Below, one piece after another: positions 8,556 through 42,519 of a DNA stretch of 42,555 nucleotides. The notes beneath the pieces were generated by a model. That model made no database searches. It worked only from the letters and a program-made list of their open reading frames with translations, and was not told where the DNA came from. Where the stretch lies: positions 1-42,555 of the IMG/VR virus record IMGVR_UViG_3300045051_000191; one strand, written 5' to 3'. Made by a program: the position numbers and the translations under genes. Within the stretch, counting starts at the first letter, position 1. Each line of letters opens with the position of its first letter. Source of the stretch: a virus.

Positions 8556-9398
8556 CTAGGCAAGTTGCAGTCCTACCAGACTACCTCTCCCCTGACGATT
8601 GCCCAGGCTGCCAGGGGAAAGGATTGTCAGATTGGACAGCGTGTTGGCCACGGCATTCCGTCCCCCGGTCCTGGCGTCCCCGAACTGTGGCGACACAGCA
8701 GACCTTTCGGGTGTCGGCAGTCCACCCATCTGCCGGGAAAGCTGACCCTCATACAGTGCCCGCGCCGCTCCAGTCTGATCGGAGGATGCAAGCATGAATT
8801 GAGCGAACTGCGCCTGCTGCTGTTGCATGGCCAGGGCCGATTCATTCCGCGAGGCAATCAGCATGTTGCGAAGCTGATCAACCGTCAGGGCCAGATCCTC
8901 ATTCTGTCTGGCATAGGTGGCCCTGGCCTGATCGATCGCCTGCTGATTGGCGGCCTGCATTGCATTCAGTGCCGACTGATCGAGGGATCGGGGAGCAGGC
9001 AGGCCAGGGCCAGCCGGCGCACCCTGGCCACCCGCCTGCCCCTGGCCACCGCTGCCGCTGCTGCCACCCCCGGCCGCTTCCTCGCCCTTCCTCCAGACCA
9101 TCACCCGGCGGGTGCCAACGCCCCTATCCCCGTTGGGTCCGAAGAACCGGGGATCGGTTGCTGGCACCTCAGTCATTCCGACAGCCCGCCATCCTTCGGC
9201 TTCGGGTGGAGTGTCACCGTAGAAGGTGTTGCTCTGCTGGCCAAACGGCACAGCCTGCATACCTCCAGGGCCGACATTCACAAAGCCGGATGACGGGCCA
9301 CCTTGCCGTCCGAAGGCGAAGCCAACAGGAGTCAGGTTCAAGGCTGGTTGCCTCGGCTGCTGACCCTGTTGGGGAAACATCATGCCGGCGAAGTTCAT
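8556..9398 (-). CDS. Gln/Gly-rich protein upstream of the portal gene, function unknown
   Basis: A 280-residue protein whose start overlaps the stop of the 62-residue gene by ATGA. The N-terminal third is Gly/Pro/Gln-rich, a low-complexity Gly/Ala/Gln linker occupies about residues 108-135, and about 138-230 looks like a long alpha helix rich in Gln and Ala. There is no motif I recognise. Its place directly before the portal gene suggests a virion or head-assembly protein. Confidence 0.75.
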   Translation of the reverse strand: MNFAGMMFPQQGQQPRQPALNLTPVGFAFGRQGGPSSGFVNVGPGGMQAVPFGQQSNTFYGDTPPEAEGWRAVGMTEVPATDPRFFGPNGDRGVGTRRVMVWRKGEEAAGGGSSGSGGQGQAGGQGAPAGPGLPAPRSLDQSALNAMQAANQQAIDQARATYARQNEDLALTVDQLRNMLIASRNESALAMQQQQAQFAQFMLASSDQTGAARALYEGQLSRQMGGLPTPERSAVSPQFGDARTGGRNAVANTLSNLTILSPGSLGNRQGRGSLVGLQLA

Positions 9399-9583
9399 GG
9401 CGAGGAATCAATACAAGATCGCAAGAATCGGACGACCGACCTTTGCCCCGAATCGTAGCGGATCTTGTCTATGGGATCCCGCAGATTGGGGGATCGTTCG
9501 GGGTAGAGCTTGTCCAGTGCATCGAGAGCCTGACGGCTGATGCCACCGGCAATGATGCGCCTCAGTTCTTCAACGGATTCCAC
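9395..9583 (-). CDS. Small conserved-type protein between exonuclease and portal
   Basis: A 62-residue protein starting at GTG 9583 within the last codons of the exonuclease gene; GAGGTAA lies 4 bases upstream and supports that start. The sequence contains YPERSPNL and SGQRSVVRFLRS, which resembles small proteins found at this position in several T7-like phages. Function is unknown. It ends in an ATGA overlap with the next gene. Confidence 0.75.
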   Translation of the reverse strand: MESVEELRRIIAGGISRQALDALDKLYPERSPNLRDPIDKIRYDSGQRSVVRFLRSCIDSSP

Positions 9584-10332
9584 AGTGTTACCTCATGTGT
9601 TTGGAAGTTGTAGTCCCCATGCCGAAGGATGCGGACTAATCGCGCCTGCGTGAGCGCATACTGTTCGGGTCCATCCACCTTCCCTTTCTTTGCATAGACA
9701 GAAACAACCTCTTGCCAACAACCCAAGGTGTCCTCAAGGTCGAATCCTTGGACGATCTTCTCTGCGGTTTTCTCCCCCACGGTTGGGCATCCAGGGATTC
9801 CATCCGTAGCGTCACCGATGAGAGCTTGTTGCCAGAAGTGTCGGTCTGCTGTTTCATTGTCGATGCAGTATAGCTCAGTGTTCAGCCATGCATGAAAGCC
9901 AGGGATTTGCTTCATGTCCTTATCGCCAGACAGGATGATGAATCCGTCATTGATGAATGGCGGACTGGTGGCCATCATCCCCATCAGATCGTCAGCCTCA
10001 ACCATCTTGAATTGATAGGCGGTTGCGCCTGACGTGATGATCTCCCGTTGCATTGCACGGAAGCCAATCGGCTTCGGCTTGCTCTTACGGTTGGCCTTGT
10101 ATTCGGGGAAAATCTCACGCCTGAATGCGGACTCATCGGTGAAGCAATGAACCACGTCATCGGGTGAGCAGTTGAACTCATGGCACCATGCGTAGATTTG
10201 ATCCCAGTAGGCAATCCTCGGCTCCCGAAGATCGCAATACCGGGTCCATTCATCCGGTGCCAGTTCAACCTCAACCTCTGCTGCTGCCATCAGGGGATAC
10301 AGCAGCATGTCTGCATCGAGTAGAAGTTTCAT
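9562..10332 (-). CDS. 5'-3' exonuclease (T7 gp6 / FEN-like)
   Basis: A 256-residue FEN-superfamily nuclease. In T7 gp6 degrades host DNA and removes RNA primers. The metal-binding motifs are all visible: LLLDADMLLY (residues 3-12), FPEYKANR (about 76-83), EADDLMG (about 109-115), LSGDKDMKQIPG (about 130-141), and the helix-three-turn-helix GDATDGIPGCPTVGEKTA (about 169-186). ATG at 10332 overlaps the upstream stop by ATGA. In a phage without a visible DNA polymerase, this enzyme would have to work together with host Pol I or Pol III. Confidence 0.93.
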   Translation of the reverse strand: MKLLLDADMLLYPLMAAAEVEVELAPDEWTRYCDLREPRIAYWDQIYAWCHEFNCSPDDVVHCFTDESAFRREIFPEYKANRKSKPKPIGFRAMQREIITSGATAYQFKMVEADDLMGMMATSPPFINDGFIILSGDKDMKQIPGFHAWLNTELYCIDNETADRHFWQQALIGDATDGIPGCPTVGEKTAEKIVQGFDLEDTLGCWQEVVSVYAKKGKVDGPEQYALTQARLVRILRHGDYNFQTHEVTLWNPLKN

Positions 10333-10592
10333 GTTGCGGGAGGTAGCTGCGGTTGCGGATCTTCGATCACATCGACCGTGACTTTCTGGACTGGGGCGGC
10401 ACCCTTAAGCCAGAGGTAGAAGTCACGGATCTGATAGATCGCTTCGCCCACTGGATCAATGCGATTAAACCCAGCAAGCCGACTCCTTATGCCATAGCGG
10501 CTAAAGATAAAGTCTTGCCATTTGTGCTCGGAAAACGAAAAGGTTATGTTGATCTTGTGTTGCATGTTGTCATGCTCAACTGTCACTCTCAT
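10329..10592 (-). CDS. Hypothetical protein, 87 residues
   Basis: ATG at 10592 is preceded by GAGGTG at a good distance and overlaps the upstream stop (ATGA). The middle part (about residues 20-65) has mixed aromatic and charged residues (FSEHKWQDFIFSRYGIRSRL) and the C terminus is Pro/Gln-rich. I do not recognise a family. It is part of the ATGA-linked chain running from primase-helicase to portal. Confidence 0.75.
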   Translation of the reverse strand: MRVTVEHDNMQHKINITFSFSEHKWQDFIFSRYGIRSRLAGFNRIDPVGEAIYQIRDFYLWLKGAAPVQKVTVDVIEDPQPQLPPAT

Positions 10593-10966
10593 TTGCTGCA
10601 CCTCACCGGCCTGCCCTTGGCCTGCTCCGCTTTCATGTAGTCCTCTTTGACTTTCTGCATCATCTGCTCAAAGGCGATGCCGGCCTTGTATCCCTTCCAG
10701 TAGCCGCGAAGGTTGTAGGGATTGAATCGAGTCGATCGCCGTTCGGCTTCACGACCCTTCATGTATCCCTCACGGTAAGCGTCAACCTTGCATCCCCTGA
10801 TCGGCATTTTCAGTCGCCACCACAGAACGTGGCCGATCCTGAGAATGGTGCAGAGCGGAACGAATGTGCAGACCCTGTTGTCAGTCAGCCATTCGTACTT
10901 GAAAATCCCCAGGTACCAAGGGACAATCTCATTTGCCTTGTATGTCTTGAAAATAGAAAACTTCAT
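10589..10966 (-). CDS. Hypothetical basic protein, 125 residues
   Basis: Starts at ATG 10966 with an ATGA overlap to the Lar-like gene and ends in ATGA with the next gene. It has a hydrophobic aromatic N-terminal half (about residues 12-52, WYLGIFKYEWL...VLWWRLKMP) that could touch a membrane, and two related segments, GYMKGREAE and GYWKGYKAG, in the second half. Function not recognised. Confidence 0.75.
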   Translation of the reverse strand: MKFSIFKTYKANEIVPWYLGIFKYEWLTDNRVCTFVPLCTILRIGHVLWWRLKMPIRGCKVDAYREGYMKGREAERRSTRFNPYNLRGYWKGYKAGIAFEQMMQKVKEDYMKAEQAKGRPVRCSK

Positions 10967-11196
10967 GGCTTGAATCCTTGTGGTTTGGCTCGGCGGTTCC
11001 ACCGCTTGATGACTTCTCGGGCACGTTCAACATGGTCCGCGCCTTCATGATCAATGTCCGACTGTGTTGCCCCGCATTGAATGCAGTAGATCATCACTTC
11101 ATCGAACCGCTGATCATCTTCATGCGAATGAAACCTGATGGTGTTGTTGGCCACCCCGCCACAGAAAGGGCAGGGCTTAAGGTTGAGCCCGGTCAT
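10963..11196 (-). CDS. Lar-like zinc-ribbon protein (possible restriction alleviation)
   Basis: A 77-residue protein with LKPCPFCGG (residues 6-14), CIQCGA (about 38-43) and VIKRWNRRA (about 62-70). This arrangement, two CxxC pairs followed by a WNRR helix, is the pattern of the Lar family, whose founding member in Rac prophage reduces type I restriction. Many phage members have no tested function. ATGA overlaps on both sides place it in the DNA-metabolism chain. Confidence 0.75.
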   Translation of the reverse strand: MTGLNLKPCPFCGGVANNTIRFHSHEDDQRFDEVMIYCIQCGATQSDIDHEGADHVERAREVIKRWNRRAKPQGFKP

Positions 11197-11429
11197 GCTC
11201 GCCGGGGTGCATAGCCGTGATCCAATGCGCCACGGTTCTGCAAGATTCCGATTGCCAATCGGAATGCAGCGGGATCGGTGAACCTCAAGCCAACATGTTC
11301 ATGCGCATCCACAATGAACTCAATCAACATGTGCTTTGGCGTCACTTGAACATAGCGAGTCATCGCCAGGTTGATTGCCATTTCATGATCGGCGCCATCG
11401 AAAGGGCCGACAAAATCATGTGGCTTCAT
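11193..11429 (-). CDS. Hypothetical protein, 78 residues
   Basis: A small protein starting at ATG 11429, one base after the upstream stop and sharing ATGA with the Lar-like gene. It looks like a compact mixed alpha/beta protein (MLIEFIVDAHEHVGLRF in the middle). No family recognised. Confidence 0.7.
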   Translation of the reverse strand: MKPHDFVGPFDGADHEMAINLAMTRYVQVTPKHMLIEFIVDAHEHVGLRFTDPAAFRLAIGILQNRGALDHGYAPRRA

Positions 11430-11430
11430 G

Positions 11431-11817
11431 TCAGTTCAGGGGATCGTCGAAGGTGGTATCAGGTGTGGGCTCATCGTGGATCAGGTTGACCACGAATGTT
11501 CCGTGATCTTCCGGCGGTGGGACTTTCGCTTGCTGCTGCATCCTGTATTCCCGAACGATCTCTGCTTCCTCATCCAACTGTTTCCTTGTGGCTTCAAGAT
11601 CCCTCTCCCAATTGATGCGACGTTGGCCGATGAGATCGATAGCCGAATGTTCTTGGGGGCAGAGCAGATCGAACATCGCTGCCTTGTATCCCTTCCAGAA
11701 TGTATCTCGCTCGGCAACTTCCATCTTTGCGGCATGGTTGATCAGATCAACCAGCAGCAGCTTCGATACGTTGATGTTGTCTCCCGTCACAGAACGGTCA
11801 AAGGGGCTGATACTCAT
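11431..11817 (-). CDS. Hypothetical protein, 128 residues, with coiled coil
   Basis: Starts at ATG 11817, overlapping the primase-helicase stop by ATGA; longer in-frame starts would lie inside the helicase gene. The middle (about residues 70-100) is a charged helix likely to form a coiled coil, and the last 20 residues are acidic. It contains FWKGYKAAM, similar to the GYWKGYKAG of the 125-residue neighbour. It occupies the place where T7-like phages have their DNA polymerase region, but it is far too short and has no polymerase motif. Confidence 0.75.
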   Translation of the reverse strand: MSISPFDRSVTGDNINVSKLLLVDLINHAAKMEVAERDTFWKGYKAAMFDLLCPQEHSAIDLIGQRRINWERDLEATRKQLDEEAEIVREYRMQQQAKVPPPEDHGTFVVNLIHDEPTPDTTFDDPLN

Positions 11818-13490
11818 GATGGAAAGAATGGGATGATTTCGTGAAAGCGGCAGGAGTCCAGATAATGCAACTTGCACATCTCTCCCCGCCTGCCAATCGG
11901 CCTGTTCTTCTTGAGCCAACACGTTGTCGTATTGGCTTCGATAGGATCTTCGGCCTCGGGATTGCGTTGCAGCATGACGACATAATCGGGAATCTGACCC
12001 AGTGACTGTGATCCCCGAAGGTTGTGAATCTCCGGTTTGCCACCAACCTCAGCCCCAACGTGGTCCCTATCGCGTGATAGGTGACACACTGCAATCATTG
12101 CGAACCTGTAGTGAACGCACAGCGATTTCAGTTCCTTGATCGCCTTGTCGATTGCACGTCGCTGATCTGCTTTCAGATCAATGCCATCTGCCAGGATTGA
12201 AAAGTGATCAAGGAAAACCACCTTACAACCCTCAGCCACCACATAATGTTTAACGGTGGCAACGAATGAATCGAAGGATTCGTCAATGTGCTTATCCAGA
12301 AGGAACAGGTTTGGCGCGAACCCAGCCAGGGCCGATCGGGTCTTGTCGGGATCACGCCTCGCCCGTTCTTCGGGAGTGTCAGCATGGAACGGTGGGTTGT
12401 ATCCCAGTTCCTCGCTCATCATTCGCTCTAGTGTTTCTTCACATGATTCCTCCAGTGCAACGTATGCATTCCTAATCCCTCGCTTAGCGAAGTCCAGGGA
12501 GATTGATCGACTGATGGCGGATTTGCCGATGTTGGTTCCACCCGCCAGCAGCCACAGTTCGCCAGGCTTGACGCCCAACGTCATTCGATTCCAACCGACC
12601 CATGGGAGTTGAATCCCCCGGTCCCCGTCGCCCTTGGTGAGCAGCTTGGACAGCAGATCAGGCGCATGAACCACAGCCTCGGGACGGTGTTTCTTTGCGC
12701 CCACCAGTGCTTCACGGATCGCCTTCCCATCCCCCGCCATCAATGCTTCATTGGCATCTTTGTAGGCGAATGACGTAACGACCCGGCTCTTAGCACCGAT
12801 CAGAGCAGCAACATCGATGGCAGCCTTTCGGCCTGGCTCATCCATGTCAAGGAAGATGATCACCTCATCGAACCGGCCAATCCACAGCAACTGGTTAGTG
12901 ATTGCGCGGACAGCCGATTGAGCACCATCGGGAATGCTGACGGCAAGCACTGTGTCTTTGCCGAATGGCGATGCTTCGGACAGACATTCAGCAATGCTGA
13001 GCGCATCCAGTTCGCCTTCGGTTATCACAAGCCTGCCGCCATTCCCCAGGTGCTGTCCGAATAGTTGGATCTTCTCATCCTTCCGCCTGCCAATCCAGGC
13101 GAACTGCTTATCTCCGTACCGCACATGCTGAGCAGTGATCAATCCATCATCGTTTCGATAGCAAGCAACCTGAGCAGGCTTGCCCAGGTAGCCAGCCACG
13201 ATGTAGTCATAAACGCGACACGTCTTTTCAGAGATCCCGCGAGTTTTGATCTGATGGGGATTGCCTTTCAGCAGAGCCTTTTGAGCGGTGGCCATGTCTT
13301 GCTTGGGCATGGCTGCCAAGTAGTCATCTGCTGAATCGCTCATCACATGTTCCCAGAGTGATCCGTCACGGTTGAATCGTCGGCAGCAGACAAAGCAGTA
13401 AACAGATCCGTCTGCGTACTCGGTGGCACCATCGGAGCTATCGCATCCGTCTCCGGGGCAAGGAATGTGACTGGTGTTCCTTCCTGCCAT
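11814..13490 (-). CDS. Primase-helicase (T7 gp4-like)
   Basis: A 558-residue bifunctional replication protein (T7 gp4A, 566). The N-terminal zinc site is C11, C16, C32 and C35. The TOPRIM primase domain shows ITEGELDAL (about residues 156-164) and IIFLDMDEPG (about 211-220). The RecA-type helicase domain has Walker A GGTNIGKS (317-324), a Walker B-like VVFLDHFSILADG and an arginine-finger region near the end. ATG at 13490 is required to keep the zinc site and places the first 148 bases inside the endonuclease gene. It unwinds DNA and makes primers; with no phage polymerase seen, the partner polymerase is presumably host-encoded. Confidence 0.95.
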   Translation of the reverse strand: MAGRNTSHIPCPGDGCDSSDGATEYADGSVYCFVCCRRFNRDGSLWEHVMSDSADDYLAAMPKQDMATAQKALLKGNPHQIKTRGISEKTCRVYDYIVAGYLGKPAQVACYRNDDGLITAQHVRYGDKQFAWIGRRKDEKIQLFGQHLGNGGRLVITEGELDALSIAECLSEASPFGKDTVLAVSIPDGAQSAVRAITNQLLWIGRFDEVIIFLDMDEPGRKAAIDVAALIGAKSRVVTSFAYKDANEALMAGDGKAIREALVGAKKHRPEAVVHAPDLLSKLLTKGDGDRGIQLPWVGWNRMTLGVKPGELWLLAGGTNIGKSAISRSISLDFAKRGIRNAYVALEESCEETLERMMSEELGYNPPFHADTPEERARRDPDKTRSALAGFAPNLFLLDKHIDESFDSFVATVKHYVVAEGCKVVFLDHFSILADGIDLKADQRRAIDKAIKELKSLCVHYRFAMIAVCHLSRDRDHVGAEVGGKPEIHNLRGSQSLGQIPDYVVMLQRNPEAEDPIEANTTTCWLKKNRPIGRRGEMCKLHYLDSCRFHEIIPFFPS

Positions 13491-13861
13491 GATGACAAGA
13501 TTTCCTCAGAGATTGGAATACGGCACCATGGAATCCCGTGTTTCTTGCACCATGCCGCATAAGTTGTTTTGCTTTTGCGGGTGATGGTTAAGTGAGGATT
13601 CTCAAGTGCAACGATGATCTTTAGGGTTGGGTTGCAGCGAATGACGCTGAGCAACTTCGCCCTTTCATCTGCCGGCCACCAACCTTTCACCTCAAAGTGA
13701 AGATCCCCGATTGTGAAATCAGGGGTGTAGACCCGATGAACTACATAGTTCAGCTTGCCCACTTCATAGGCGAAAGGTATCCCTCTATCGGTCAGATTCT
13801 CGGCAACAGCTTGTTCAAGCCCTGACCGAAACTGACCTTTCCGGCGTGACTTGAACCTCAT
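13343..13861 (-). CDS. Endonuclease I, Holliday-junction resolvase (T7 gp3-like)
   Basis: A 172-residue protein (T7 gp3, 149). It resolves branched DNA before packaging and helps break down host DNA. Visible family features are RSGLEQAVAENL (about 13-24), YTPDFTI (about 48-54), the catalytic FEVKGWW (about 58-64) and a late KxxTxYAAWCKKHGIPW region. ATG at 13861 shares one base with the SSB stop (TGATG). The C-terminal roughly 45 residues, rich in Thr, Ala and Ser, are translated from DNA that also encodes the primase zinc-binding domain in another frame. Confidence 0.92.
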   Translation of the reverse strand: MRFKSRRKGQFRSGLEQAVAENLTDRGIPFAYEVGKLNYVVHRVYTPDFTIGDLHFEVKGWWPADERAKLLSVIRCNPTLKIIVALENPHLTITRKSKTTYAAWCKKHGIPWCRIPISEEILSSWQEGTPVTFLAPETDAIAPMVPPSTQTDLFTALSAADDSTVTDHSGNM

Positions 13862-14496
13862 CAAAATGGGATCTCATCATCGCTGAATGTCTCGCCACCG
13901 CTGGCCAGCATGGCCCCCAGCGAGTCGGCAGCGGGTGCCCCGGCTGCTCCCTCAGCCTCGGGAGTCCAGCCACCCTCCACGGCCTCAAGCTCGATGGCGC
14001 GTTTCTCCAGTTTGACGATCTGGAAACCGCTGATCTGGAGCCCGATGCCGATGTTCCCGGCCTTGTTGTAGGGATACGGCTGGAAAACCATCTTGCCTTC
14101 ACTGCCGCTCGGCACTTCCGGCAGCTTGACAGGACGCCCCATGGAATCGAACAGGAGAGGGGGCGAGTTGTCGGTCAGCCCGGTGGCTTTCTTGTTGATC
14201 TGGCAGGGACGCTTGAACTTCCAGACCAGCATCCCCGGTTCCCGCTCTTTGACGCCGGCCTCATTCTTCTTCATCGATGGCCCATAGGGGAAGATGAGAA
14301 GATCATTGGTGCGGGGGAAAACGGGATTCTTCTTCCGTTCATCCTCAATGGTCTTGTTGACCAGTTCCATCAGAGGAAGCGAATCGGCTTCGGCCAGCAC
14401 CAGGCCAGCAGACCATTCGGGCTTGTTGCTGAGGCTCATCGCCGGGTCAACAATGTGGGACCAGGCGAGGCGGCCGATGGGTGTTGTGTGATGCAT
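13861..14496 (-). CDS. Single-stranded DNA-binding protein (T7 gp2.5-like) with SSB-type tail
   Basis: A 211-residue protein in the gp2.5 position (T7 gp2.5, 232). It coats ssDNA and coordinates replication. Segments such as FPRTNDLLIFPYGPSM and MLVWKFKRPCQIN resemble cyanopodoviral SSBs. The last six residues are DDEIPF, one conservative change from the DDDIPF tail of bacterial SSB, which docks many host repair and replication proteins; T7 gp2.5 instead ends in an acidic tail with final Phe. ATG at 14496 was chosen as the start; longer in-frame starts lie between the promoter and the coding region. Confidence 0.88.
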   Translation of the reverse strand: MHHTTPIGRLAWSHIVDPAMSLSNKPEWSAGLVLAEADSLPLMELVNKTIEDERKKNPVFPRTNDLLIFPYGPSMKKNEAGVKEREPGMLVWKFKRPCQINKKATGLTDNSPPLLFDSMGRPVKLPEVPSGSEGKMVFQPYPYNKAGNIGIGLQISGFQIVKLEKRAIELEAVEGGWTPEAEGAAGAPAADSLGAMLASGGETFSDDEIPF

Positions 14497-14561: not shown

Positions 14562-14590
14562 ACGATAGGGCGAAGGTTGCACCATGTCAA
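14562..14590 (-). promoter_or_regulatory. Promoter at the RNA polymerase/SSB boundary
   Basis: -35 TTGACA (14585-14590) overlaps the stop codon of the RNA polymerase gene; a 17-base spacer leads to TATCGT (14562-14567). The first 14 bases, TTGACATGGTGCAA, also fit the recurrent phage motif with one change. It would drive SSB and the DNA-metabolism chain. Confidence 0.65.
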
Positions 14591-16977
14591 GTGAAAAGAA
14601 AAGGATTCTCCCCGATCTTGGTTGTATCCAGGGTGCCAATCATCGGGGGTGGTGGCAGTTCACCACATTCAGCCTGGGCCATCTTCCATAGCTCATCCAA
14701 TCTGTCAGGCCCATAGAAGTTGTTGAACTCTTTGTTCAGTTGGACGCGCATTGCCCTCACTCGATCCAGGGTGGTGCCGAAGCAATCGTGAATCGTTACC
14801 AGGGGATTGCCCATCCTGCCCCATCGATAGACGAATCGTTGCAGGAATGCTGCATCCATCGAATGAATGTAGTCTGCGGCAAGTTGCCGGGTGTGATTCT
14901 TCACCGGCATTCCTTCATTGTCGCGGACAAGGAACCTTGCCCTTCGACCGCTCAGCAGTAGATCGATGGTGCGGTGTTTCGTTTCCGATGCATACGATTC
15001 CACCAGCAGGCCATTCGGTGTGTACCAGTGAGGCTTCATTCCTGCCTTTATCTGCGCCTTGCCCACCAGGGCCATCCACCTTGACAGACTGAGCACGTTG
15101 GGTATTGCTTTCTTGATGCCAGCATTGATGTAGCCAGCCAGCAAACCACCCAGCTTGACGATGTTATCCCCATCGACATTCCGAAAGTCTCTCTCCCTGT
15201 CCCTCAGGTAGCCAATGACAGCATCCATCAGTGTCAGGTGAGAGCGCCCATAGATGACAGGCATGATCGCATTCTTAAACATGGTTCGATCGGGCCATTC
15301 TTCCAGCCACCATCGAAGCATTCTCAGATCATCGGCATTGGCCAGCTTGATAAATGCCTTGTTGACTTCCTCCCTTACGATCTTGCCGATCGCTGTATAG
15401 AGATCCGAATAGGAATCGCCTGTGATGTTGACCCATTCAGCCAGCCTGGCATCACGGGTGAGGCAGGCAACATGACCGTACCCACTGGCTGACTGATCGA
15501 TCTGAAAGACAACGCCAGTTCGGTAGTTCACATCTTGCGCATACCTTGCCCATTCACGGCACAGTTGAACGAACTTCCATGGCTTTTTCTTGTCCTCCCA
15601 TGTGGCCGGAGCGGTCAGCGGATCAAGCCCGACACGTTGAATCATGACCCGGTTTTCTTCCAAGTAACTGACCCTGGCTTGCCAGTCGGGAATGATCCCG
15701 GCAGCATCACCTAAGGCCCAGGCAAACTCCTCGGTGTTACCTGCCATCGGTGCAGTCACATCGAACCGAATCATCGACCGGAACGGATCGCTCCCTGTGA
15801 TGTTAAGTTGGCTGCCACGGGGATACATTCTCCCCCGATGATCCTGCTGCCAGCAGAAGTAAATCTGTTGGTACTCCCGAATCTTCTCAGCACTGATCAA
15901 CGCATTGATGAACTTGGCACGAATGCCATCCTTCCGTTCATCTGCCTTCACCCTCCAAACTTTCTTCCACCGCTCAGTATTGCTTACGCCTTTCTTGTAT
16001 TCTTCCAGATCATTCGGCATCACCAGCTTATCCCTGGCCGGCAACCCTCCGACTTCACGATTCAGAGTCCAGATTTCCTCCATCAGATTGATCTGATCCC
16101 AGTCAAGCTGGAAGGGAATGCTCTGCTGAATGTTGAGACTACCCAACACACACTCATCAGTCTCGCGGTGGGCAATCTTATAGTTCTCCCATGGCAACTT
16201 TGAGCATGGAGTAACGATGGTGTAGTACCCACCATCAGCAAGCTCAGTGTATGGCTTCGGTGGAATCAACATCGGCATGTGCATCGGACGGAATAGCAGG
16301 AGATTCCGTTTCCACCGCCTCAGGAAATCCCAGTAGAGTGTGGTGCATTCAATCGATCGATACTTCCTGGCCCTGGCGTCATACCGAATGACAACCTCAA
16401 GCATTTTTGTTGCGGCAATCATCGCCTCAATAAAGAAGCCGCCCAATGCTGTCCGCTCGATTGTTTTCAGCGGCCGATAATGAATCGTCTTATGCAGTCC
16501 GCTATCCTTCAGCCGCTGCATCACCAGATTCATCCCAAGATCATTATTGCTGGCCAATCGCAACCCTTTTAGGTGAATCCTTCCGCCCCAGGTTGGATGG
16601 CGCAGCCACAGAACATACTCAGCCAGCTTGCCAAGCTGAGCACAGGTTGCAATGTATCGAGAGGGACCATGCAAGTTGCCGAATACATGCAACATCATTT
16701 CGATGGTCACTTCGATGACAGTATCCTCATCGTGAAACAGATCCCAAATTGCACCATTGGACTGTGCCCTTGTGCTCCGGTTTCTGTAGTATTCCAGCGC
16801 AGTCTGAACGACCCGATCGATCATTCGATGGGCCATGAATGAGGCGGCGCCTCTTTCCCAACCCTTTGAGACTGCACGGCCAGCGCCTACACAGCGCATC
16901 CATTCTTCTAGCTCGATCTGCTCTTTCAGCCCCGGCCAGCGTTGCGCGTTACGGTCTGGCGACTGTTGATCGTGCAT
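14587..16977 (-). CDS. Single-subunit DNA-directed RNA polymerase (T7 gp1-like)
   Basis: A 796-residue polymerase (T7 RNAP, 883) that transcribes middle and late phage genes. Motif A is FQIDQSASGYGH with catalytic Asp494. Motif B has Lys568 and Tyr576 (FKNAIMPVIYG), with the same eight-residue spacing as K631 and Y639 of T7. Motif C is IHDCFGT with catalytic Asp731. The C terminus ENPFLFT mirrors the conserved T7 DFAFA end. I chose ATG at 16977; GTG at 17025 would add 16 residues. It is shorter than T7 RNAP mainly in the N-terminal promoter-binding region, as in cyanophage enzymes. Confidence 0.95.
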   Translation of the reverse strand: MHDQQSPDRNAQRWPGLKEQIELEEWMRCVGAGRAVSKGWERGAASFMAHRMIDRVVQTALEYYRNRSTRAQSNGAIWDLFHDEDTVIEVTIEMMLHVFGNLHGPSRYIATCAQLGKLAEYVLWLRHPTWGGRIHLKGLRLASNNDLGMNLVMQRLKDSGLHKTIHYRPLKTIERTALGGFFIEAMIAATKMLEVVIRYDARARKYRSIECTTLYWDFLRRWKRNLLLFRPMHMPMLIPPKPYTELADGGYYTIVTPCSKLPWENYKIAHRETDECVLGSLNIQQSIPFQLDWDQINLMEEIWTLNREVGGLPARDKLVMPNDLEEYKKGVSNTERWKKVWRVKADERKDGIRAKFINALISAEKIREYQQIYFCWQQDHRGRMYPRGSQLNITGSDPFRSMIRFDVTAPMAGNTEEFAWALGDAAGIIPDWQARVSYLEENRVMIQRVGLDPLTAPATWEDKKKPWKFVQLCREWARYAQDVNYRTGVVFQIDQSASGYGHVACLTRDARLAEWVNITGDSYSDLYTAIGKIVREEVNKAFIKLANADDLRMLRWWLEEWPDRTMFKNAIMPVIYGRSHLTLMDAVIGYLRDRERDFRNVDGDNIVKLGGLLAGYINAGIKKAIPNVLSLSRWMALVGKAQIKAGMKPHWYTPNGLLVESYASETKHRTIDLLLSGRRARFLVRDNEGMPVKNHTRQLAADYIHSMDAAFLQRFVYRWGRMGNPLVTIHDCFGTTLDRVRAMRVQLNKEFNNFYGPDRLDELWKMAQAECGELPPPPMIGTLDTTKIGENPFLFT

Positions 16978-17132
16978 TCTCAGGAATCTCAGTGGTGAAG
17001 CCAGTCCATGACTGGTAGTTGACACAGCGCAATCTCATCACAGAACCCTCATCCGTGAGAAGAAAGCATGAACCTAGCAAGGACAACGGGACTCGGGCGT
17101 TGCGTTGCACGAATCCCGTTGCACATGCATTG

Positions 17133-17709: not shown

Positions 17710-18729
17710 TCATGTGTCAACCATCGAGAACAGATCGATTGCGGATCCGTGGACGTAACGCTGTGTGATGGCCATGGACTGATGCCCACCCCATGCCTGG
17801 ATCTGCGGGCCTGACCATCCCTTGCTGGCGAGATTGGTCAAACAGGTATGCCGAAGCGTATGAATGACCCACTGTTTTCTGATCTCATCAGACAGGCCCA
17901 GCCGATCACAAACGCTATCCCTGGCATCATTGTATTGACGCTGGAATGTGGGATAGGGCATTGTGAACAGTCGCTCACCATAGCCACGGCTGGGAAGTGA
18001 TGCCAGCATGGGACGAATTGCCTTTGGAATGGGTATCCTGCGGGCTTTCTTTCCCTTGGTGCGAGTGAACAGGATCGATGGCTTTCCCGTTTCAAGATCA
18101 ACCCTCTCCCACGTCAGAGCAAGGGCTTCACTGATGCGGCAGCCAACGTGATACAGGAAGGCTGTCAGCCTGGCTGCTTCCCGATTCTCCCGGCGTTCCA
18201 GTTCATCCATCAGGGCGGCCAGCCATTCGGGCCTGAGCACCAGTTCACGGGGCTCAGCCTCAGGCAGCAAGCGTGACTCAGGGAATAGCGGGATGGTGTT
18301 GATCAGCCGCAGCCGCTGCGCTCGCTTGAGCATGATCCTCAGCCCTGAAAGGTACCGATTGATCGTGCCATTGCTGCATCCCTTGCCTTCTTTGCCATGC
18401 TCCCGCAGCCATGCGACGAACTTATCGATTGACTGTTCGGTTATGTCAATCGGTAGGGAATCGGGACCGAAGTAAGCAACAATTCCCTTGCCAATCTTCG
18501 GCATGGCATCGCTCTTTCCATTCCAGTCCAGCATGATGCATGTGTTGAGCAGGCTGGCCATTGTGCCATCCTTGGGAACATGCTCACGGGCGTTGATCCT
18601 GCCCAGTTCGGCTAGTAACTGGGCTTCAACTGTCCGCGCATGTTCTTCACTGTCACATGCAATGGACTTTCTCTTTCCTTTGTGTGCTGCGAATGCTCGC
18701 CACACTCCATTGACTTGACGGACTGACAT
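17710..18729 (-). CDS. int: Tyrosine recombinase integrase
   Basis: A 339-residue tyrosine recombinase. The catalytic set is visible: Arg198 in CRISEALALTWERVD, Lys225 in the beta hairpin TRTKGKKARRIP, His290 and Arg293 in HTLRHTCLTNLASKG, His316 in WGGHQSMAI, and nucleophile Tyr325 in RYVHG. The N-terminal part (about residues 1-150) holds the arm- and core-binding domains. The gene sits 15 bases after the MarR-like gene and upstream of the RNA polymerase, the same order as the integrase of some marine T7-like cyanophages. Site-specific integration is therefore likely possible, although no attP is recognisable here. Confidence 0.94.
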   Translation of the reverse strand: MSVRQVNGVWRAFAAHKGKRKSIACDSEEHARTVEAQLLAELGRINAREHVPKDGTMASLLNTCIMLDWNGKSDAMPKIGKGIVAYFGPDSLPIDITEQSIDKFVAWLREHGKEGKGCSNGTINRYLSGLRIMLKRAQRLRLINTIPLFPESRLLPEAEPRELVLRPEWLAALMDELERRENREAARLTAFLYHVGCRISEALALTWERVDLETGKPSILFTRTKGKKARRIPIPKAIRPMLASLPSRGYGERLFTMPYPTFQRQYNDARDSVCDRLGLSDEIRKQWVIHTLRHTCLTNLASKGWSGPQIQAWGGHQSMAITQRYVHGSAIDLFSMVDT

Positions 18730-18744
18730 TGTAGGAATGCAAAG

Positions 18745-19083
18745 TTACTTTTCACCGTAGACAAGATCAGCGAATAGCTGCATCACATTCTTGCCACGAT
18801 CCGTCAGATAAACAAGCTGGAACCTGTCATCTTGCGGATCCTTTTCAACACGAATCAGGCCCAACTTTCCGCCCTTCCCATCACGCCGACCGGCTGATCC
18901 CAATACATCAATGGCGCGGCTGATTGCAGCAACAGAAAGTTCACAGTCAGCAGCTAGATCGGTTTGAGATTGTCCTTCTTTGGCAGCAATGGAAAGTAGA
19001 ATGTCAACCTGGGAAACCCTCAACTGAGGATGAATGGTACGCAGCAGCTTGACAGCCTTGCGAAACCTACCTAAGCGGATCAT
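18745..19083 (-). CDS. MarR-like winged-helix transcriptional regulator
   Basis: A 112-residue protein (115 if GTG 19092 is used). The sequence QVDILLSIAAKEGQSQTDLA, then ELSVAAISRAIDVLGSAG (recognition helix region, about residues 48-65) and GLIRVEKDPQDDRFQLVYLT (wing) follow the MarR pattern, including the D-x-R motif of the wing. It is followed by the integrase after 15 bases, so the pair may form a lysogeny or early-control unit. Confidence 0.85.
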   Translation of the reverse strand: MIRLGRFRKAVKLLRTIHPQLRVSQVDILLSIAAKEGQSQTDLAADCELSVAAISRAIDVLGSAGRRDGKGGKLGLIRVEKDPQDDRFQLVYLTDRGKNVMQLFADLVYGEK

Positions 19084-19131
19084 AAAGTTCACTCGCGCAA
19101 CAGCTTGACTATAGACGATCTTTGCCCCCAG

Positions 19132-21339: not shown

Positions 21340-21391
21340 GGGGAGCATCATGCTCCCCCAGCACATTAGGCGGTAACTTGAATGCTGTCAA
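21340..21391 (-). promoter_or_regulatory. Promoter followed by palindrome, upstream of the 172-residue gene
   Basis: -35 TTGACA (21386-21391), 17-base spacer, -10 TAATGT (21363-21368); TTGACAGCATTCAA again matches the recurrent motif exactly. The palindrome GGGGAGCATGATGCTCCCC (21340-21358) follows at the expected transcript start. The ArdC-like gene's stop codon overlaps the -35 box. Confidence 0.75.
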
Positions 21392-22356
21392 GCATCGCCC
21401 GTAGGCTCATCTGCTGCGATGGATTCGGGGACGATCATCCCGGCCGCTTTAGTTGCATCGCTCAGCACCTTGAAAAGCACCTTCGGACCTTCGCCCAGCA
21501 CCTTCGCCCAATGGTGCAGATAGGCCGCATGATTCTCGGTGCTGCTGCTGATCTCTAGCCTCTGGCAGAGCAGGAAAGCACCAAGCTCCGCCACAAGTTC
21601 TTCGCGGGCATACTTGTCATCCCCGAACACTCCCCCAAAGTCACGGGCCAGCCTGGACTTATGGCCGGTGCTGTGGATGCATTCATGGGCCAACGTCGCA
21701 TAATACGCGGCATCATTGGTGAATGCCTTACGGGCCGGCATGTTGATACGATCGATCGCAGGGGAATAGCAGGCCCTGTCACCCCCATGCGTCACTTTCA
21801 CCGGCCATGCCTTCAGAGCAGCCGCTGCATCGCGCAGCCGTTCATCCTCTGGCCTGTCAGCGATCGTCCCAACGTACTTGGCTATGGCATCTTCCAGGCC
21901 ATCGCCTTTCAAGTCTGCGACGTTGAAAACACAAGCGGGCCGATAGCTAATCCATTGTGCGATCACAGGATCGCCATTCTCATCCCTGATAGTCCGGCCA
22001 TCCTCATCCTGCTGGATCCTGCTATTCAGTTGCGGCCGCAAGATGTAGCAACCTTTGCTCCCCTTCACTGGATACCAACCATTCTTCTTTGCTTGTGCCA
22101 ATCCGCACCAAAGGGCAAGCGTTGATCCTCTGGCGGCCATTTGAAACTGTAGAACAGCAGGATTGCATCCCTGATAGGGTTTGCCAGTTGCCAGGTTAAT
22201 GTGGCGGGATGATTGTTGGCCGGTCCATTCTTTGCGCCATGGATTGACACCGGCATTCATAAGCTCCACAAGTTGAGCCACTAGCTTCTCATCGGCCGAA
22301 GGACCGTCATAAACGGGCCGGGCTTTTCTTGTTTTCGTAGCGGTTGCAGTTGCCAT
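21388..22356 (-). CDS. ardC: ArdC-like antirestriction protein
   Basis: A 322-residue protein with the two ArdC parts. The N-terminal ssDNA-binding domain (about residues 14-140) shows VNPWRKEW, YQGCNPAVLQ and a later WISYRPACVFNVADL. The C-terminal zinc metallopeptidase-like domain has HECIHSTGH (His224, Glu225, His228) and a downstream glutamate helix YAREELVAELGAFLL. ArdC of plasmid pSa protects incoming ssDNA from restriction; phage and plasmid relatives are common. ATG at 22356 gives the usual MATATATK-type start and follows promoter, hairpin and leader element; upstream in-frame codons lie across that promoter. Confidence 0.9.
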   Translation of the reverse strand: MATATATKTRKARPVYDGPSADEKLVAQLVELMNAGVNPWRKEWTGQQSSRHINLATGKPYQGCNPAVLQFQMAARGSTLALWCGLAQAKKNGWYPVKGSKGCYILRPQLNSRIQQDEDGRTIRDENGDPVIAQWISYRPACVFNVADLKGDGLEDAIAKYVGTIADRPEDERLRDAAAALKAWPVKVTHGGDRACYSPAIDRINMPARKAFTNDAAYYATLAHECIHSTGHKSRLARDFGGVFGDDKYAREELVAELGAFLLCQRLEISSSTENHAAYLHHWAKVLGEGPKVLFKVLSDATKAAGMIVPESIAADEPTGDA

Positions 22357-22367
22357 GATTGGGAAAG

Positions 22368-22430
22368 ATAAAGTGCAACGGTTGGCGGTTGAATGAACCG
22401 CCATTAATGCCCGACACAATGGACGGGCAA
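22368..22430 (-). promoter_or_regulatory. Promoter, hairpin and leader element of the ArdC-like gene
   Basis: -35-like TTGCCC (22425-22430), 17-base spacer, -10 TTAATG (22402-22407), then the palindrome GGCGGTTCATTCAACCGCC (22384-22402) at the expected transcript start, then GCACTTTATC (22367-22376) 13 bases before ATG. The same order recurs at several neighbouring genes. Confidence 0.65.
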
Positions 22431-22445
22431 GAATGGCGGATCTTT

Positions 22446-22850
22446 TCAATAACGCACGGCCGTCGGTTGCCATGTGTCAATGATTGAGCCGTCAGCATTC
22501 TTTACTGTTGTTTTCTTCATCCAGAAGTAGGCTCCCCTGAGTTCATCACGAATCACCTTGTCATAGTCCTCTCTGCTCAGTGAGTCCATAGGCATAGGCA
22601 GGCCACCATCAGATGGCGGGAACAGCCACATAACATCGCGGTGATAGATCACCTTAAGCTCATTCTCTTTGTGAGCATAGACTTTCTGCCTGGCCCATAC
22701 TGGCAGCTTGCCGAACGTTGGATCTTTCAATGCTTCATTGATCTCATTGATCATCCATGCATGGGACTGACGGCATCTTGCGATTTGGATGATGCAATCA
22801 ATGCGGCCGATGAACCGGGCGACCCTACGGTTTGCGAGTGCTGGCGTCAT
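22446..22850 (-). CDS. Hypothetical protein, 134 residues
   Basis: ATG at 22850 (MTPALANRRVARFIGR) has the ACACTTTATC element 13 bases upstream. Basic N-terminal helix, then a mixed region with several Trp (PVWARQKVYAHKENELKV, DVMWLFPPSDG). No family recognised. In-frame extension upstream would run through the leader hairpin and the preceding gene. Confidence 0.7.
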   Translation of the reverse strand: MTPALANRRVARFIGRIDCIIQIARCRQSHAWMINEINEALKDPTFGKLPVWARQKVYAHKENELKVIYHRDVMWLFPPSDGGLPMPMDSLSREDYDKVIRDELRGAYFWMKKTTVKNADGSIIDTWQPTAVRY

Positions 22851-25057: not shown

Positions 25058-25317
25058 GCGGTGGTTGCCACCGTTCAAGTGCTCCGATGACCCAAGCCCG
25101 CGACACGTCCTGGGGCAAGACTCGGGGCGCATTCTTTCTGGATCTGGAAATGTTGGCCCTGGCCGATGTGCCTGCTGGCTACATCGTTGAATCCCTCAAG
25201 CGGAAGGGGCTTGATGTTGAACTGATCAACAACGCGATTGTGCCGCCCGAAGGCATGGTGCTCACCATCACTCGGGAAGCCCGCACGGTTGTTGTGCGCT
25301 GGCGGCAAAGAGCATGA
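25054..25317 (+). CDS. Hypothetical protein directly upstream of the large terminase
   Basis: The frame opens at TTG 25054 (87 residues, overlapping the preceding stop); ATG at 25087 (76 residues, MTQARDTSWGKTRGAFFLD) is the other likely start and has no clear ribosome-binding site. The part FFLDLEMLALADVPAGYIVESLKRKGLDVELI looks well folded. It shares ATGA with the terminase gene. I do not recognise it as the small terminase; a better candidate is at 27478..27744. Confidence 0.65.
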   Translation: MSGGCHRSSAPMTQARDTSWGKTRGAFFLDLEMLALADVPAGYIVESLKRKGLDVELINNAIVPPEGMVLTITREARTVVVRWRQRA

Positions 25318-27116
25318 GTCTTGGCCTCACGCTACCGCAGTTCATCACGAAACTGATGCGTGAGTTGAGCATGGCTCGGTATCCGACGCCTGTTCAGTTG
25401 CAAATCCTTGACTACATTCAAGGTGCGCCAAGCATGGCTCAGGTTGACATGATTCGCCCGAAGGATCCGGGCGAGTTGTGGCTACCTGGCAAGGTCAGCA
25501 ATCGCAAGATTGTGTGTGGTTTTCGGGGAGTCGGAAAGTCATTCCTGACGGCAGGCACTGGCCTGTGGTGGCTTGACGAGGATCCCGATGAAAAGCTCCT
25601 ATTCGTTAGTGCATCCGGTGGCTTCGCAAAGAAGATCACCACATGGATGCTGACCACCATCAAGACGGTGCCGTGGCTGGCTCATCTTCGGCCCGATACA
25701 AGGGACGGTCGATACAGCAACATTGAGTTCGATGTTGGCTGCTGCCTCAACATTGAGCAGAGCCCATCGGTCAGGGCGGCTGGTATCTACGGACAAGTCA
25801 CCGGATCGCGGGCATCGAAGGTCATTGTTGATGACTGCGAAACGCCGCAGACGTGTTTGACCCAGTTGCAGCGGGAGAGGTTGAAGGCTGGCCTGGAAGA
25901 ATGCGAATCCATCCTCAAGCCCATTCCGACTGCTGCTGTTTACTACCTGGGGACGCCTCACGCTTCGGCTGAGTCTGTGTACTTCTTCCTCAACAAACAG
26001 CGCGGCTACGACATGCGAATGTGGCCGGCAAGGGTGCCGGAGAAGCGTGAGCCATACAAGGGAATGTTGGCCCCCAACATTGACAGGCTGGTTGACGATA
26101 ACGCCGGAAAGCCGACTGATACCCGATTCAGCGAAGAAACGCTGCGCGAAAAGCAACTGAGCATGAGCCCCGCAAAGTGGCGGCTCCAGTTCATGTTGGA
26201 TCCGACGCTGACGGATGCAGAGAAGTTCCCGCTCAAGTGCGCTGATCTGATTGTTGCCACCCTGGACGACACGTTGCCAGAGGTTGTGATGCTTGAGAAG
26301 CACCACAACTTTGCATTGCCGGATCTCCCATGTGCCGGCATGGGGAATGACACCACGTTCTACCGGCCCAGCCTGATCGAGGGGACGGTACGGGCGGCCG
26401 ACGTGCCCACGGTGCTGATTCTGGATCCCTCGGGAGGGGGCGCGGACCAGTTCGCCTGGGGCGTCCTGTCGGCCTGGGGTGGCAACTTCTACCTGCGGGC
26501 ACTCGGGGGGCAGCGGGGGGCCACTAGCGATGCGATGTGGGAACGGCTGGCCCAACTCGGGAAGAAACACAGCGTCAAGCGTGTGTTGGTTGAGTCGAAC
26601 TTTGGCGGCCTGGCTGTGTGGGAGCAGGTTGGAAAACCGTTCTTCCAGGCAGCAGGGCACCCCGTCACCTTTGAGGGGATCCGAACTGGCGGGATGCGAA
26701 AGGAACTGCGGATCATCGACACACTCGCCCCGGTGGTTCAGACGCACAGGCTGATTGTTGACCGTCGCATCATCGAGGAAGATGCGGAAATCTTCAATGA
26801 TGCTGAGGATGATGCAGCGGCCTCCTACAGCTTCATCTATCAGTTCACACGGATCACTGAGGTTAAGGGCTCAATCCGGCATGATGACAAGCTGGACACT
26901 GTTGCCCTTGGTGTTCAATTCTTCCAAGAACAGGCGGCACAGGATCAGCAAGTTCAGCACGAAAAGCGCAGACATGAGTATGCCCTGGCTGCCTTGGAAG
27001 ATAGCCAGGGCTATTCGTTGTTGAACGCGAATCGGATGGCGCTGGGGATGACGTTGGAGCAGGCCAGGCTGGCGGCTGCCAGTGACACTACCGGCAGCAA
27101 CTGGCTTGACCGCTGA
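25314..27116 (+). CDS. terL: Terminase large subunit (T7 gp19-like DNA maturase B)
   Basis: A 600-residue packaging motor (T7 gp19, 586). The ATPase domain has Walker A GFRGVGKS (about residues 69-76) and Walker B KVIVDDCE (about 171-178). The nuclease domain begins at about residue 370 with TVLILDPSGGGADQFAWG, carrying a catalytic Asp, and has later acidic residues (HDDKLD, about 523-528). ATG at 25314 overlaps the upstream stop. Its stop is immediately next to the stop of the convergent minus-strand gene, with no terminator between. Confidence 0.94.
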   Translation: MSLGLTLPQFITKLMRELSMARYPTPVQLQILDYIQGAPSMAQVDMIRPKDPGELWLPGKVSNRKIVCGFRGVGKSFLTAGTGLWWLDEDPDEKLLFVSASGGFAKKITTWMLTTIKTVPWLAHLRPDTRDGRYSNIEFDVGCCLNIEQSPSVRAAGIYGQVTGSRASKVIVDDCETPQTCLTQLQRERLKAGLEECESILKPIPTAAVYYLGTPHASAESVYFFLNKQRGYDMRMWPARVPEKREPYKGMLAPNIDRLVDDNAGKPTDTRFSEETLREKQLSMSPAKWRLQFMLDPTLTDAEKFPLKCADLIVATLDDTLPEVVMLEKHHNFALPDLPCAGMGNDTTFYRPSLIEGTVRAADVPTVLILDPSGGGADQFAWGVLSAWGGNFYLRALGGQRGATSDAMWERLAQLGKKHSVKRVLVESNFGGLAVWEQVGKPFFQAAGHPVTFEGIRTGGMRKELRIIDTLAPVVQTHRLIVDRRIIEEDAEIFNDAEDDAAASYSFIYQFTRITEVKGSIRHDDKLDTVALGVQFFQEQAAQDQQVQHEKRRHEYALAALEDSQGYSLLNANRMALGMTLEQARLAAASDTTGSNWLDR

Positions 27117-30743: not shown

Positions 30744-33700
30744 ATGGCCTTTCGATACGATCGGGAACGGGGCGAATGGGTCTATGACGATCCAACCGAT
30801 CCCGCAAGTACGGCTGTAGCCGAACGTCCGGTTCCAACGTCATTCGACACCTTCGGACAGGATCTGGCCGCCCGTGACATGCGGCGGCTGGAAGCTCAGC
30901 AGCAGGCTCAGTTCGATCAGCAGCAGGCAGAGTTCAATCAGGCGAAACCTGATCTGCCGTTCATCGCTGACAGCCCTGGTGAGGCTGGCAAGGAAGTGTT
31001 GCGGGTGCTGGGCAATACTGGCGCGGCGTTGATCACTGACTATGCCGATCTTTTCCTCGGTGTCGGTGATCTGATTGGTGAAACGTTTGATGCTGTCACC
31101 CCAGGTGGCGATGGCTTCACGGCTGACAACATCTTCAATGATGCTGACAATCCGTGGACTCGCTGGCGGCGCAACACGTTTGCACCGACAACGGAAGTCG
31201 GGAGAGGTGTTGGCACCCTGGCGCGGATCGCCACGATGGCCGTCACGCTGCCGAAGTTCGCCGCGAAAGGTCTTGCTCTGCCATTCAGCACGGTTGGCCG
31301 TGCTCAGTTCTTGGGGCCGATCGCCAGTGCATCTTCCGGCATCGGATCTTTCATCACGAAAGCCGATGACTGGATGAAAGGCGTCAAGGCTGGGGATGCA
31401 GCCAATGACCGGGCGAAAGCACTCAAGCGGCTACAGGATTCATTCGCCAAGGGCTCGCCTGCCGCCCGTGCCGTCAATAACGCCGCCGAGAATACCTGGC
31501 TGGCTCTGCCGCTTGATGACATTGCCAAGGTCACGGCAGGTGCTGACGATCTGAAAGGCTTTAATGAATGGGCCAGCAACGTTCGTCAGGGTGTCAAGGG
31601 ACTGACTCAGCTTGGCTTCAAGGCCCCTCCGAAAGTCAAGCTCCGCACTGTCGGACAGGCGCTGGCCTGGGATGCATTCATCGCGTTCAACATCGCTGGC
31701 GAAGGCGATGAGGAAATGGATGCGACTTTCTCTGACGCCCTGAATGACTTTGGCTTGCCCGCCTATCCCGGCCTGATGACGTGGGCCGAGGATTCGGCAT
31801 GGTCGAGGAAGGTCAAGCAGATGGTCGAAGGTCTGGCGGTCGGCGCCGTGTTCAACGGCATGATCGATTCTTACCGGGCCTACAAGTTCGCTCAGAACTT
31901 CCGGCGGGCCAAGCCGACTGAGCAAGCGCAGATCATGGCCGCTTTCGGTCAGAACGCTCAGGAGATTGGTGACTCCATCGGGATGCAGATTGCCACCATC
32001 GATGGCGTTCCCGGTGCCGTGAGGGTGGGCGCTGGCGATTCGATGGTGACGGATGAGAGAGCCGCCAGCATCGCCAGGTTGCAGCGGGAGAACGCCGATG
32101 TTGCGGCTCGCTTCCCTCAGCCTGAGCCGGGTGGCGCCCTGGCCCTGAGCAATCAGACCCAACTGGAGCAGCTTGAGAGCACCCTTCGCCAGCAGCGATT
32201 CAGCAATGAGGCTGCACGGCGGGCTCAGATGGCCCAGCAGCAGGCAGCACAGGCGATCCAGCAGAACAGCGAGATCGAAGATGAGATCATGGCGGGTCGA
32301 ATGTCGGCCACGCTTGACAGTCCGGTTCAGCAGTTTCTGGCCCAGGCCGAAGGACTGGCGAGCCCGATCAATCCTGATGATGCTCGCTTCAATCAGCGAT
32401 TCCCGGTCGGCAGTGATTTCGTAGAAGCCGATCCGCTTCCCCGGTTCAACTTCGACGCCATGCCGCCGGTCGGGCCTGCCCCGGTCGCGCCTGGTGGCCC
32501 CCTGGTGCCCACGGCCGCCCCCTCGCCCCGCTTCGACTTCGGGGCCATGCCGCCGGTTGATCCGGCCGCCCCGGCGCCGCCTGGGGCCATGGTGAGCGGT
32601 GCTGTCGAGCCGGTGACGGTTCGGGATCTCGGGCCGGCTGCGCCCCGTGGCCCTGAGCCGATCGTCACTCCACAAACGATCCGTTCGGCATTTGAGCGTG
32701 ATGCCATGCGGGCCTGGGAGGAAATGCAGGCTCTGACGTTCCAGCAGGGCTCCGATGGCATCTTCCGCAGCCTCAGCCGTGGCGTCCGAAACCTGATGCC
32801 CAGGACTCGGGTGGACGCCATGGAATACGTCATGCGCTTCCCGACCACGCTCAATCCGATGGGCGTACTTCCGGCATCGGACAGTGTGTGGACGAACTTC
32901 ATCAGTCAGAAAGCTCTGGCTGAGGGTTGGGCACGGGTTGATCCTGACACGCTTGAGATTTACTACAACCGAAAACTTGCGTTTGATCTTGACAGGGGCG
33001 ATGCAGTAACGGCCCAGGCGAAAGCACTTGACGATCTTGAATCGCTCACTGAGTTCGATGACAGCTTGGTGGACGTTTCGGAATCGTTCAGGGTTGCACA
33101 GCAGGAGCAGCCGGTTCCGATTGATCCTGCTCAATCGGCCAGGGTTGCAGATGCCGAAGTTGATCCGGCAATGGCCGATGCACAGGCCCGTGCCGTTCAG
33201 GGTGGCCAGGCGAATGACGCCTATGACGCATGGGAAGCGAGCCAGAATGCACAGCGTCAGGCTGACTTCCAGCAGGCCCTGAAAGCCTATGACGAATGGG
33301 AGGGATCTGGCTGGGCCAGCACTGCACGGGAAGCCATTGACGCTGCTGACAATGTTGACGCATTGGACGCTGCTGAGGAAGCTCGCCTGCTCACCGCCGA
33401 AAGAATGAGAATGTCGGGTGAATCTCCTGATCAGGTTGTTGTCCGTGAAATGCTGGGCATCGATCTCGATTCGGCAGTGAATGCCGAAGTTGTCAAAGCG
33501 GACACCACGCGAGGATGGAACGTTGTTGATCGAAACGGCGAACTGCTGACTGATCAAAAGTTCCAGACAAAACGCCGCGCCATTGACTTCGCCAAGGCCG
33601 AAAACAATCGGTTTAAGCAAGCATTGGTGAATCGTGCTCGGCAGATGGAAGCCGACGCCGACGATCAGGTGATGACCGTCAACACCAGTTCGCCGGTCAT

Positions 33701-40681: not shown

Positions 40682-40965
40682 GGGATTCGATGTAGCCAGC
40701 TAAGGAACTCGGGGAATGTATCAAGTGCCCTGAGTGCATTCGCATCAGCAAGAATCATTTTCTGCATGACGCCGTTGGGGAACTGGAATGGATGCACCTC
40801 TAGCTCTACGTTCTTCATTTCCCCATCTTCCATAAACGGAATGTAGATGGATGATCCCTGGAACTTTGCCGTGATCACATAGCGAAGCTCGCCTGTTTCG
40901 GCATCGAACACAGGTGTTCTGTGGCGGGGCTTGTTGGTGTCAGTCACAGGAAAGTCCACCCCCAT
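40678..40965 (-). CDS. Hypothetical protein, 95 residues
   Basis: ATG at 40965 overlaps the end of the peptidase gene by 22 bases; the stop shares ATGA with the 48-residue gene. Sequence has a beta-rich core (PVFDAETGELRYVITAKFQGSS, as about residues 18-39) and a helical C terminus. No family recognised. Confidence 0.7.
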   Translation of the reverse strand: MGVDFPVTDTNKPRHRTPVFDAETGELRYVITAKFQGSSIYIPFMEDGEMKNVELEVHPFQFPNGVMQKMILADANALRALDTFPEFLSWLHRIP

Positions 40966-42459: not shown

Positions 42460-42482
42460 GGGATGAGAGTTGACACCCCACA

Positions 42483-42511
42483 ACAGTACGGCATGGCCAT
42501 CATGCCGTCAA
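42483..42511 (-). promoter_or_regulatory. Promoter with palindromic operator for the cyAbrB-like gene
   Basis: -35 TTGACG (42506-42511), 17-base spacer, -10 TACTGT (42483-42488). The spacer and flanks form the inverted repeat CGGCATG-ATGGC-CATGCCG. A palindrome between -35 and -10 is a typical operator position, so autoregulation or control by another phage regulator is plausible. Confidence 0.7.
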
Positions 42512-42519
42512 GCTCTTTC

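Follow-up and report, generated by a model that had tools for sequence, protein, structure and literature searches.

The locus analyzed here raises the question of how a T7-type phage copies its DNA when its replication module contains no recognizable DNA polymerase gene. The window, i.e. the whole virus record IMGVR_UViG_3300045051_000191 (42,555 bases), was annotated with PHROGs and Pfam profiles, which revealed on the minus strand, in the same order as in T7, a single-subunit RNA polymerase (RNAP, 812 aa; positions 14587-17025; phrog_414, E 1.1e-101; PF00940, E 2.7e-35), a gp2.5-type single-stranded DNA-binding protein (SSB; 13861-14496; phrog_112, E 2.5e-16), endonuclease I, a Holliday resolvase (13343-13864; PF05367, E 3.8e-23), a T7 gp4-type primase-helicase (11814-13490; phrog_239, E 3.2e-124; PF21268, PF13155 and PF03796), five small frames, a gp6-type 5'-3' (flap) exonuclease (9562-10332; phrog_107, E 1.3e-55; PF02739) with a possible role in Okazaki primer removal, and a small conserved protein of 62 aa (9395-9583; phrog_4970; matched by 59 ORFs in the relatives compared), after which come the portal, scaffold, capsid and tail genes. 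The primase-helicase contained a zinc motif as well as Toprim and DnaB-like domains, and lacked an acidic, aromatic C-terminal tail. These assignments bore out the sequence-only reading, which had described a T7-type module of SSB, endonuclease I, primase-helicase and exonuclease in T7 order without a polymerase, and with only five small genes between helicase and exonuclease.

A family A polymerase would be expected in the interval occupied by these five ORFs (11431-11817 to 10329-10601, all on the minus strand). The first (128 aa; 11431-11817) had neither a family nor a homologue in relatives, and the second (78 aa; 11193-11429) had no family either. The third (10963-11196) encoded a Lar-like restriction alleviation protein with a zinc motif (PF14354, E 8.4e-13), homologues of which were found at the equivalent position in loci L008, L054 and L076, whereas the fourth (125 aa; 10589-10966) had weak homologues only in L008 and L054 and the fifth (90 aa; 10329-10601) had homologues only in the same two loci, neither of the two ORFs being assignable to a family. 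The Lar-like gene is one of two antirestriction genes of this genome, the other being ArdC-like (21388-22473; PF08401 plus the zincin domain PF18818).

Six-frame searches of the window with PF00476, PF00136 and PF07733 (families A, B and C) gave no matches while the controls matched; PF03175 gave none either, but its controls were equally silent. A custom phage-PolA HMM, trained on the family A polymerases of ten phages, reached at best 1.2 bits (E 6.3) in the window, compared with 842-980 bits in four polymerase-containing control genomes, which were themselves among the training sequences. The earlier statement that no frame has polymerase motifs was thus upheld by the three family profiles and the custom HMM. 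A highly divergent or novel polymerase might still be sought among the unassigned proteins, as several small ORFs and the two largest unassigned frames (27843-30740, 965 aa; 30744-34100, 1118 aa) have no family. However, both large proteins were homologous to virion-module proteins of Krakvirus S39C11, where they adjoin an internal virion protein, and every ORF of polymerase-capable size was either assigned or had virion homologues in that phage. With the small ORFs of the interval being far too short and not conserved across the clade, and with the PolA HMM and the PolB and PolC profiles silent, we consider such an enzyme highly improbable.

The genome proved to be closed. A direct terminal repeat was present at both ends (1-204 and 42352-42555; 203 of 204 positions identical, one mismatch), and therefore the genome is whole and no segment is missing; it closes to 42,351 bp when the two copies are merged. 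With the ends joined, an AbrB-like frame of 190 aa lies directly behind the gp14-like gene, and the same order is seen in the complete fosmid genome S39C11. IMG/VR classed the record as 'linear' and reported no end repeats, probably due to the single mismatch. As this 204-base repeat illustrates, complete genomes may be overlooked when only perfectly matching repeats are sought. The loss of a polymerase segment from the contig through an assembly artefact could be suspected for a metagenome-derived record that is classed as linear and whose end repeats differ at one base, but the closed genome, together with the recurrence of this gene arrangement in the S39C11 fosmid and in dozens of independent contigs, makes its probability practically negligible. 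Since the closed genome contains no polymerase gene, this phage must rely on a polymerase of its host.

Comparison with related phages, which the sequence-only reading had suggested as a check, supported the same absence on a wider scale. A primase-helicase scan of viral contigs yielded 80 loci, and the clade of the window was defined as those loci (some of them near-identical) whose helicase was at least 44% identical to that of the window. PolA was not found in any of the 66 clade loci that had both helicase and exonuclease, and the gap between the two genes in these loci ranged from -16 to 2173 nt. In contrast, distant relatives with a helicase 30-36% identical to that of the window carried PolA, either between helicase and exonuclease (outgroups L084, L087, L088 and LUZ100) or behind the helicase (L083 and L085). 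A search of 39 whole records with PF00476 matched only LUZ100 and L084. The absence throughout the clade indicates that it is old, and excludes a recent deletion in this genome, including one between 9.5 and 11.9 kb as had been considered earlier. In the RNAP tree, polymerase-less phages formed a Krakvirus-like clade including the window, a second clade of S-SRP02, S38C3, S37C6 and S31C1, and a single long branch of MPP-C phages. Two changes were needed to explain the lack of polymerase on this tree, although a single clade was not rejected (AU p 0.25). In S-SRP02 and Stopalavirus S38C3 (L132), the primase-helicase was also undetectable, and an NrdR-type zinc-ribbon protein was located near its usual place. 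Such a loss of the helicase is the direction expected of a growing dependence on the host replisome.

Polymerase-less T7-like phages are already known, and the window is a further example. The earlier reading assumed that a DNA polymerase gene is nearly always present in T7 relatives with their own RNAP; published exceptions are the MPP-C cyanopodoviruses, which were isolated and described in 2022 (PMC9860041). Database records of Krakvirus S39C11, Oinezvirus S37C6, Stopalavirus S38C3, Nohivirus S31C1 and S-SRP02 also show no PolA. Our literature searches brought up no paper that addresses the missing gene in the lineage of the window. The MPP-C phages (P-SCSP1a and others) are T7-like cyanophages that possess SSB, endonuclease I, primase-helicase and exonuclease, have no polymerase and, similar to the window, lack the acidic tail of the helicase. 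On the other hand, their genomes are 37-38 kb, the RNAP of P-SCSP1a is only 27% identical to that of the window and lies elsewhere on the RNAP tree, and no integrase is annotated in P-SCSP1a. Thus, judged from its genes, the window falls outside the MPP-C clade and fits the broader kind of T7-like phages that have replication genes and no identifiable polymerase.

The nearest named relative was Krakvirus S39C11 (uncultured phage MedDCM-OCT-S39-C11, AP013549). It shares with the window the order MarR, integrase, RNAP, SSB, endonuclease, primase and exonuclease without a polymerase, the terminase on the opposite strand and the matching virion genes. However, S39C11 is marine, its RNAP (41%), primase-helicase and terminase large subunit (TerL) are only 41-52% identical to those of the window, Lar and ArdC are not annotated, and its SSB has no terminal Phe. 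The nucleotide match is almost nil (with 8.5-16 kb as blastn query, the coverage was 1%). In ICTV practice, a genus corresponds to a genome-wide nucleotide identity of about 70%, and by this criterion the window would be placed outside the genus Krakvirus. Oinezvirus S37C6, Nohivirus S31C1 and Stopalavirus S38C3, all uncultured and marine, are similarly T7-like members of group G9 without PolA, but belong with S-SRP02 to a separate RNAP clade. Pseudomonas phage LUZ100 (OP329100), a temperate T7-like phage with integrase, MarR, RNAP and an equal replication order, differs from the window in two respects: its helicase-exonuclease interval contains a family A polymerase, and its helicase has an acidic tail with a terminal Phe. 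Synechococcus phage S-SRP02 (MW822601; PMC8790148), a freshwater cyanophage, resembles the window in its T7-like RNAP, integrase, MarR, SSB, exonuclease, C39 peptidase, opposite-strand terminase and lack of PolA, but has no primase-helicase and contains a RusA resolvase and its own beta-type clamp. In its publication, the 5'-3' exonuclease carries the label DNA polymerase I, and a concatenated tree includes 'DNA polymerase' (PMC8790148); the gene annotated 'DNA polymerase I' (22389-23129 in L004) was homologous to the 5'-3' exonuclease and did not match the PolA HMM. We also observed that a gene of S37C6 with the same annotation (L093, 20750-21481) had no PolA HMM match.

Given that a host polymerase has to be used, the next question is how it is engaged. 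The acidic C-terminal tail of T7 gp4 binds basic patches on the gp5 polymerase, and when the tail is removed, processivity drops from 17 kb to about 5 kb (PMC12593628). We found acidic, aromatic-ended helicase tails in 9 of 13 polymerase-containing phages and in none of the 27 dereplicated polymerase-less clade members (none of 73 in all). The net charge of the last 12 residues differed between the two groups (Mann-Whitney p 8.5e-7, not corrected for relatedness; because the helicase sequences are related, such p-values overstate the evidence). The helicases of S37C6 and S31C1 kept a short aromatic-ended tail despite having no PolA. The absence of the tail is the pattern expected once gp5 is gone, and the lack of this docking tail in the clade argues against a T7-style loading of the host polymerase on the phage helicase. 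Thus, of the earlier proposal that the phage may load a host polymerase on its own helicase, the need for a host polymerase is supported, but the T7 form of loading is not.

The missing tail also bears on the possibility that host DNA polymerase I, rather than polymerase III, is recruited to the phage helicase. Pol I belongs to family A, like the missing T7 gp5, the phage retains a Pol I-like 5'-3' exonuclease, and Pol I was the first of three options given for MPP-C, before host Pol III and a very divergent polymerase (PMC9860041). However, apart from the lack of a T7-type docking tail, relatives of the window have gained a beta clamp, on which Pol III depends for its processivity, as described below. 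Moreover, Pol I is a repair enzyme of low processivity. Taken together, these points make the recruitment of Pol I unlikely.

Two other sequence features were set aside. First, the C-terminus of the window SSB (SDDEIPF) resembles the tip of bacterial SSB, but DDEIPF as a signature of polymerase-less phages is suggestive at most. Apart from the window, only 3 of 64 clade SSBs had a PF tip, the DDEIPF tip was confined to the nearest subclade of the window and a few others, and the SSBs of the polymerase-containing ProddE and L088 also ended in PF. Second, the QTDLF motif of endonuclease I was considered as a beta-clamp binding site, but it lies within a 148-nt overlap (13343-13490) in which the final 49 codons of endonuclease I coincide with the start of the primase-helicase, in a frame that overlaps the one encoding the primase zinc finger (DGSVYCF). 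Of 11 dereplicated lineages, only 6 had the motif in the form xTxLF (or xMxLF). Synonymous conservation was 0.66 in the overlap versus 0.53 in the rest of the helicase gene, which is compatible with either overprinting or selection on the motif, and therefore the motif was not relied on.

Evidence on the polymerase partner came from the relatives. S-SRP02 and the clade member L015 shared a protein of 234-252 aa that was identified as a beta-type clamp, and a scan for its relatives found 32 viral loci, including another clade member, L101. Clamps of about 240 aa (L015, 3286-4041; L101, 7585-8430; S-SRP02 (L004), 10903-11607) were therefore present in two polymerase-less lineages, that of the window (L015/L100 and L101) and that of S-SRP02; the L060 sequence was a fragment. 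They contained the conserved motifs TDGHR and LLMPVxxR, which we take to be motifs of bacterial DnaN. Nearly all matches of the clamp profile in PDB, including the best, were beta clamps, and so were all 50 Foldseek matches listed for an AlphaFold model (pLDDT 83, pTM 0.84). None of 25 clamp-bearing records contained PolA, many of these being fragments and some of the weakest matches uncertain, and a T7-type RNAP was found in 8 of the 25. The Pfam profile PF02768 detected none of the 25 phage clamps, which are too divergent for it, and our own clamp profile was therefore used. With this profile, no clamp was found in the window, and most clade members were likewise without one.

Pol III owes its processivity to the beta clamp. 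The occurrence of such a clamp in polymerase-less relatives thus makes a mixed replisome with host Pol III the most economical reading, and points to clamp-based use of this enzyme in place of the helicase loading proposed earlier. We estimate a probability of roughly 0.6 that in the window phage, host DNA polymerase III and the host clamp cooperate with the phage-encoded helicase, SSB and exonuclease; as the window and most of its clade have no clamp of their own, the Pol III step is assigned to this genome by analogy. After injection, the phage RNAP would transcribe the replication module, and the primase-helicase would unwind the DNA and prime synthesis while the gp2.5 SSB covers the strands. 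The host Pol III holoenzyme would then synthesize DNA on the host beta clamp, which in relatives such as L015 and L101 would be replaced by the phage clamp. Finally, the flap exonuclease would remove the RNA primers and endonuclease I would resolve junctions.

Other genes suggested the lifestyle and host of the phage. A tyrosine integrase (17710-18729, minus strand; phrog_1, E 5.3e-46) and an adjoining MarR-like regulator (18745-19092, minus strand; phrog_9665, E 2.2e-23; PF01047) lie upstream of RNAP, as possibly in a temperate T7-like phage. The plus strand carries the terminase (TerL, 25314-27116; phrog_38, E 3.5e-71; 52% identical to that of S39C11), internal virion proteins and the tail fibre. 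The C39-peptidase endolysin (40944-41675, minus strand; phrog_10051) was of a cyanophage type, all 107 matching phage records being cyanophages, and the nearest terminases listed after S39C11 were also those of cyanophages. A picocyanobacterial host is likely on these gene affinities, and the closed, T7-type (autographivirus-like) genome is probably that of a temperate phage of cyanobacteria. No prophage of the clade was found in the genome-contig collection; the matches were distant relatives only (28-35%), four of five in records of Alphaproteobacteria and at least three with a polymerase. The integrase and MarR-like regulator would also suit a prophage-like or satellite-like element that has little autonomous replication and is copied passively by the host. 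But the window has the full set of genes for capsid, tail, packaging, lysis and RNAP together with a primase-helicase, and the polymerase-less S-SRP02 and MPP-C phages have been isolated and infect cultured hosts, so that this explanation appears very unlikely.

The description of MPP-C left open, among its three options, how polymerase-less T7-like phages copy their DNA (PMC9860041). The loss of the docking tail in the clade of the window, and the beta clamps that occur repeatedly among its relatives, offer a testable answer to this question. In addition, our results indicate that environmental surveys of this group cannot safely rely on DNA polymerase as a marker gene. We consider the chances about even that this is a deep T7-like lineage in which host Pol III, on a sliding clamp supplied by the host here and by the phage in some relatives, is driven by a gp4-type primase-helicase. 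If true, the combination of a gp4-type helicase with host Pol III would make a hybrid replisome of a type known neither from T7 nor from bacteria.
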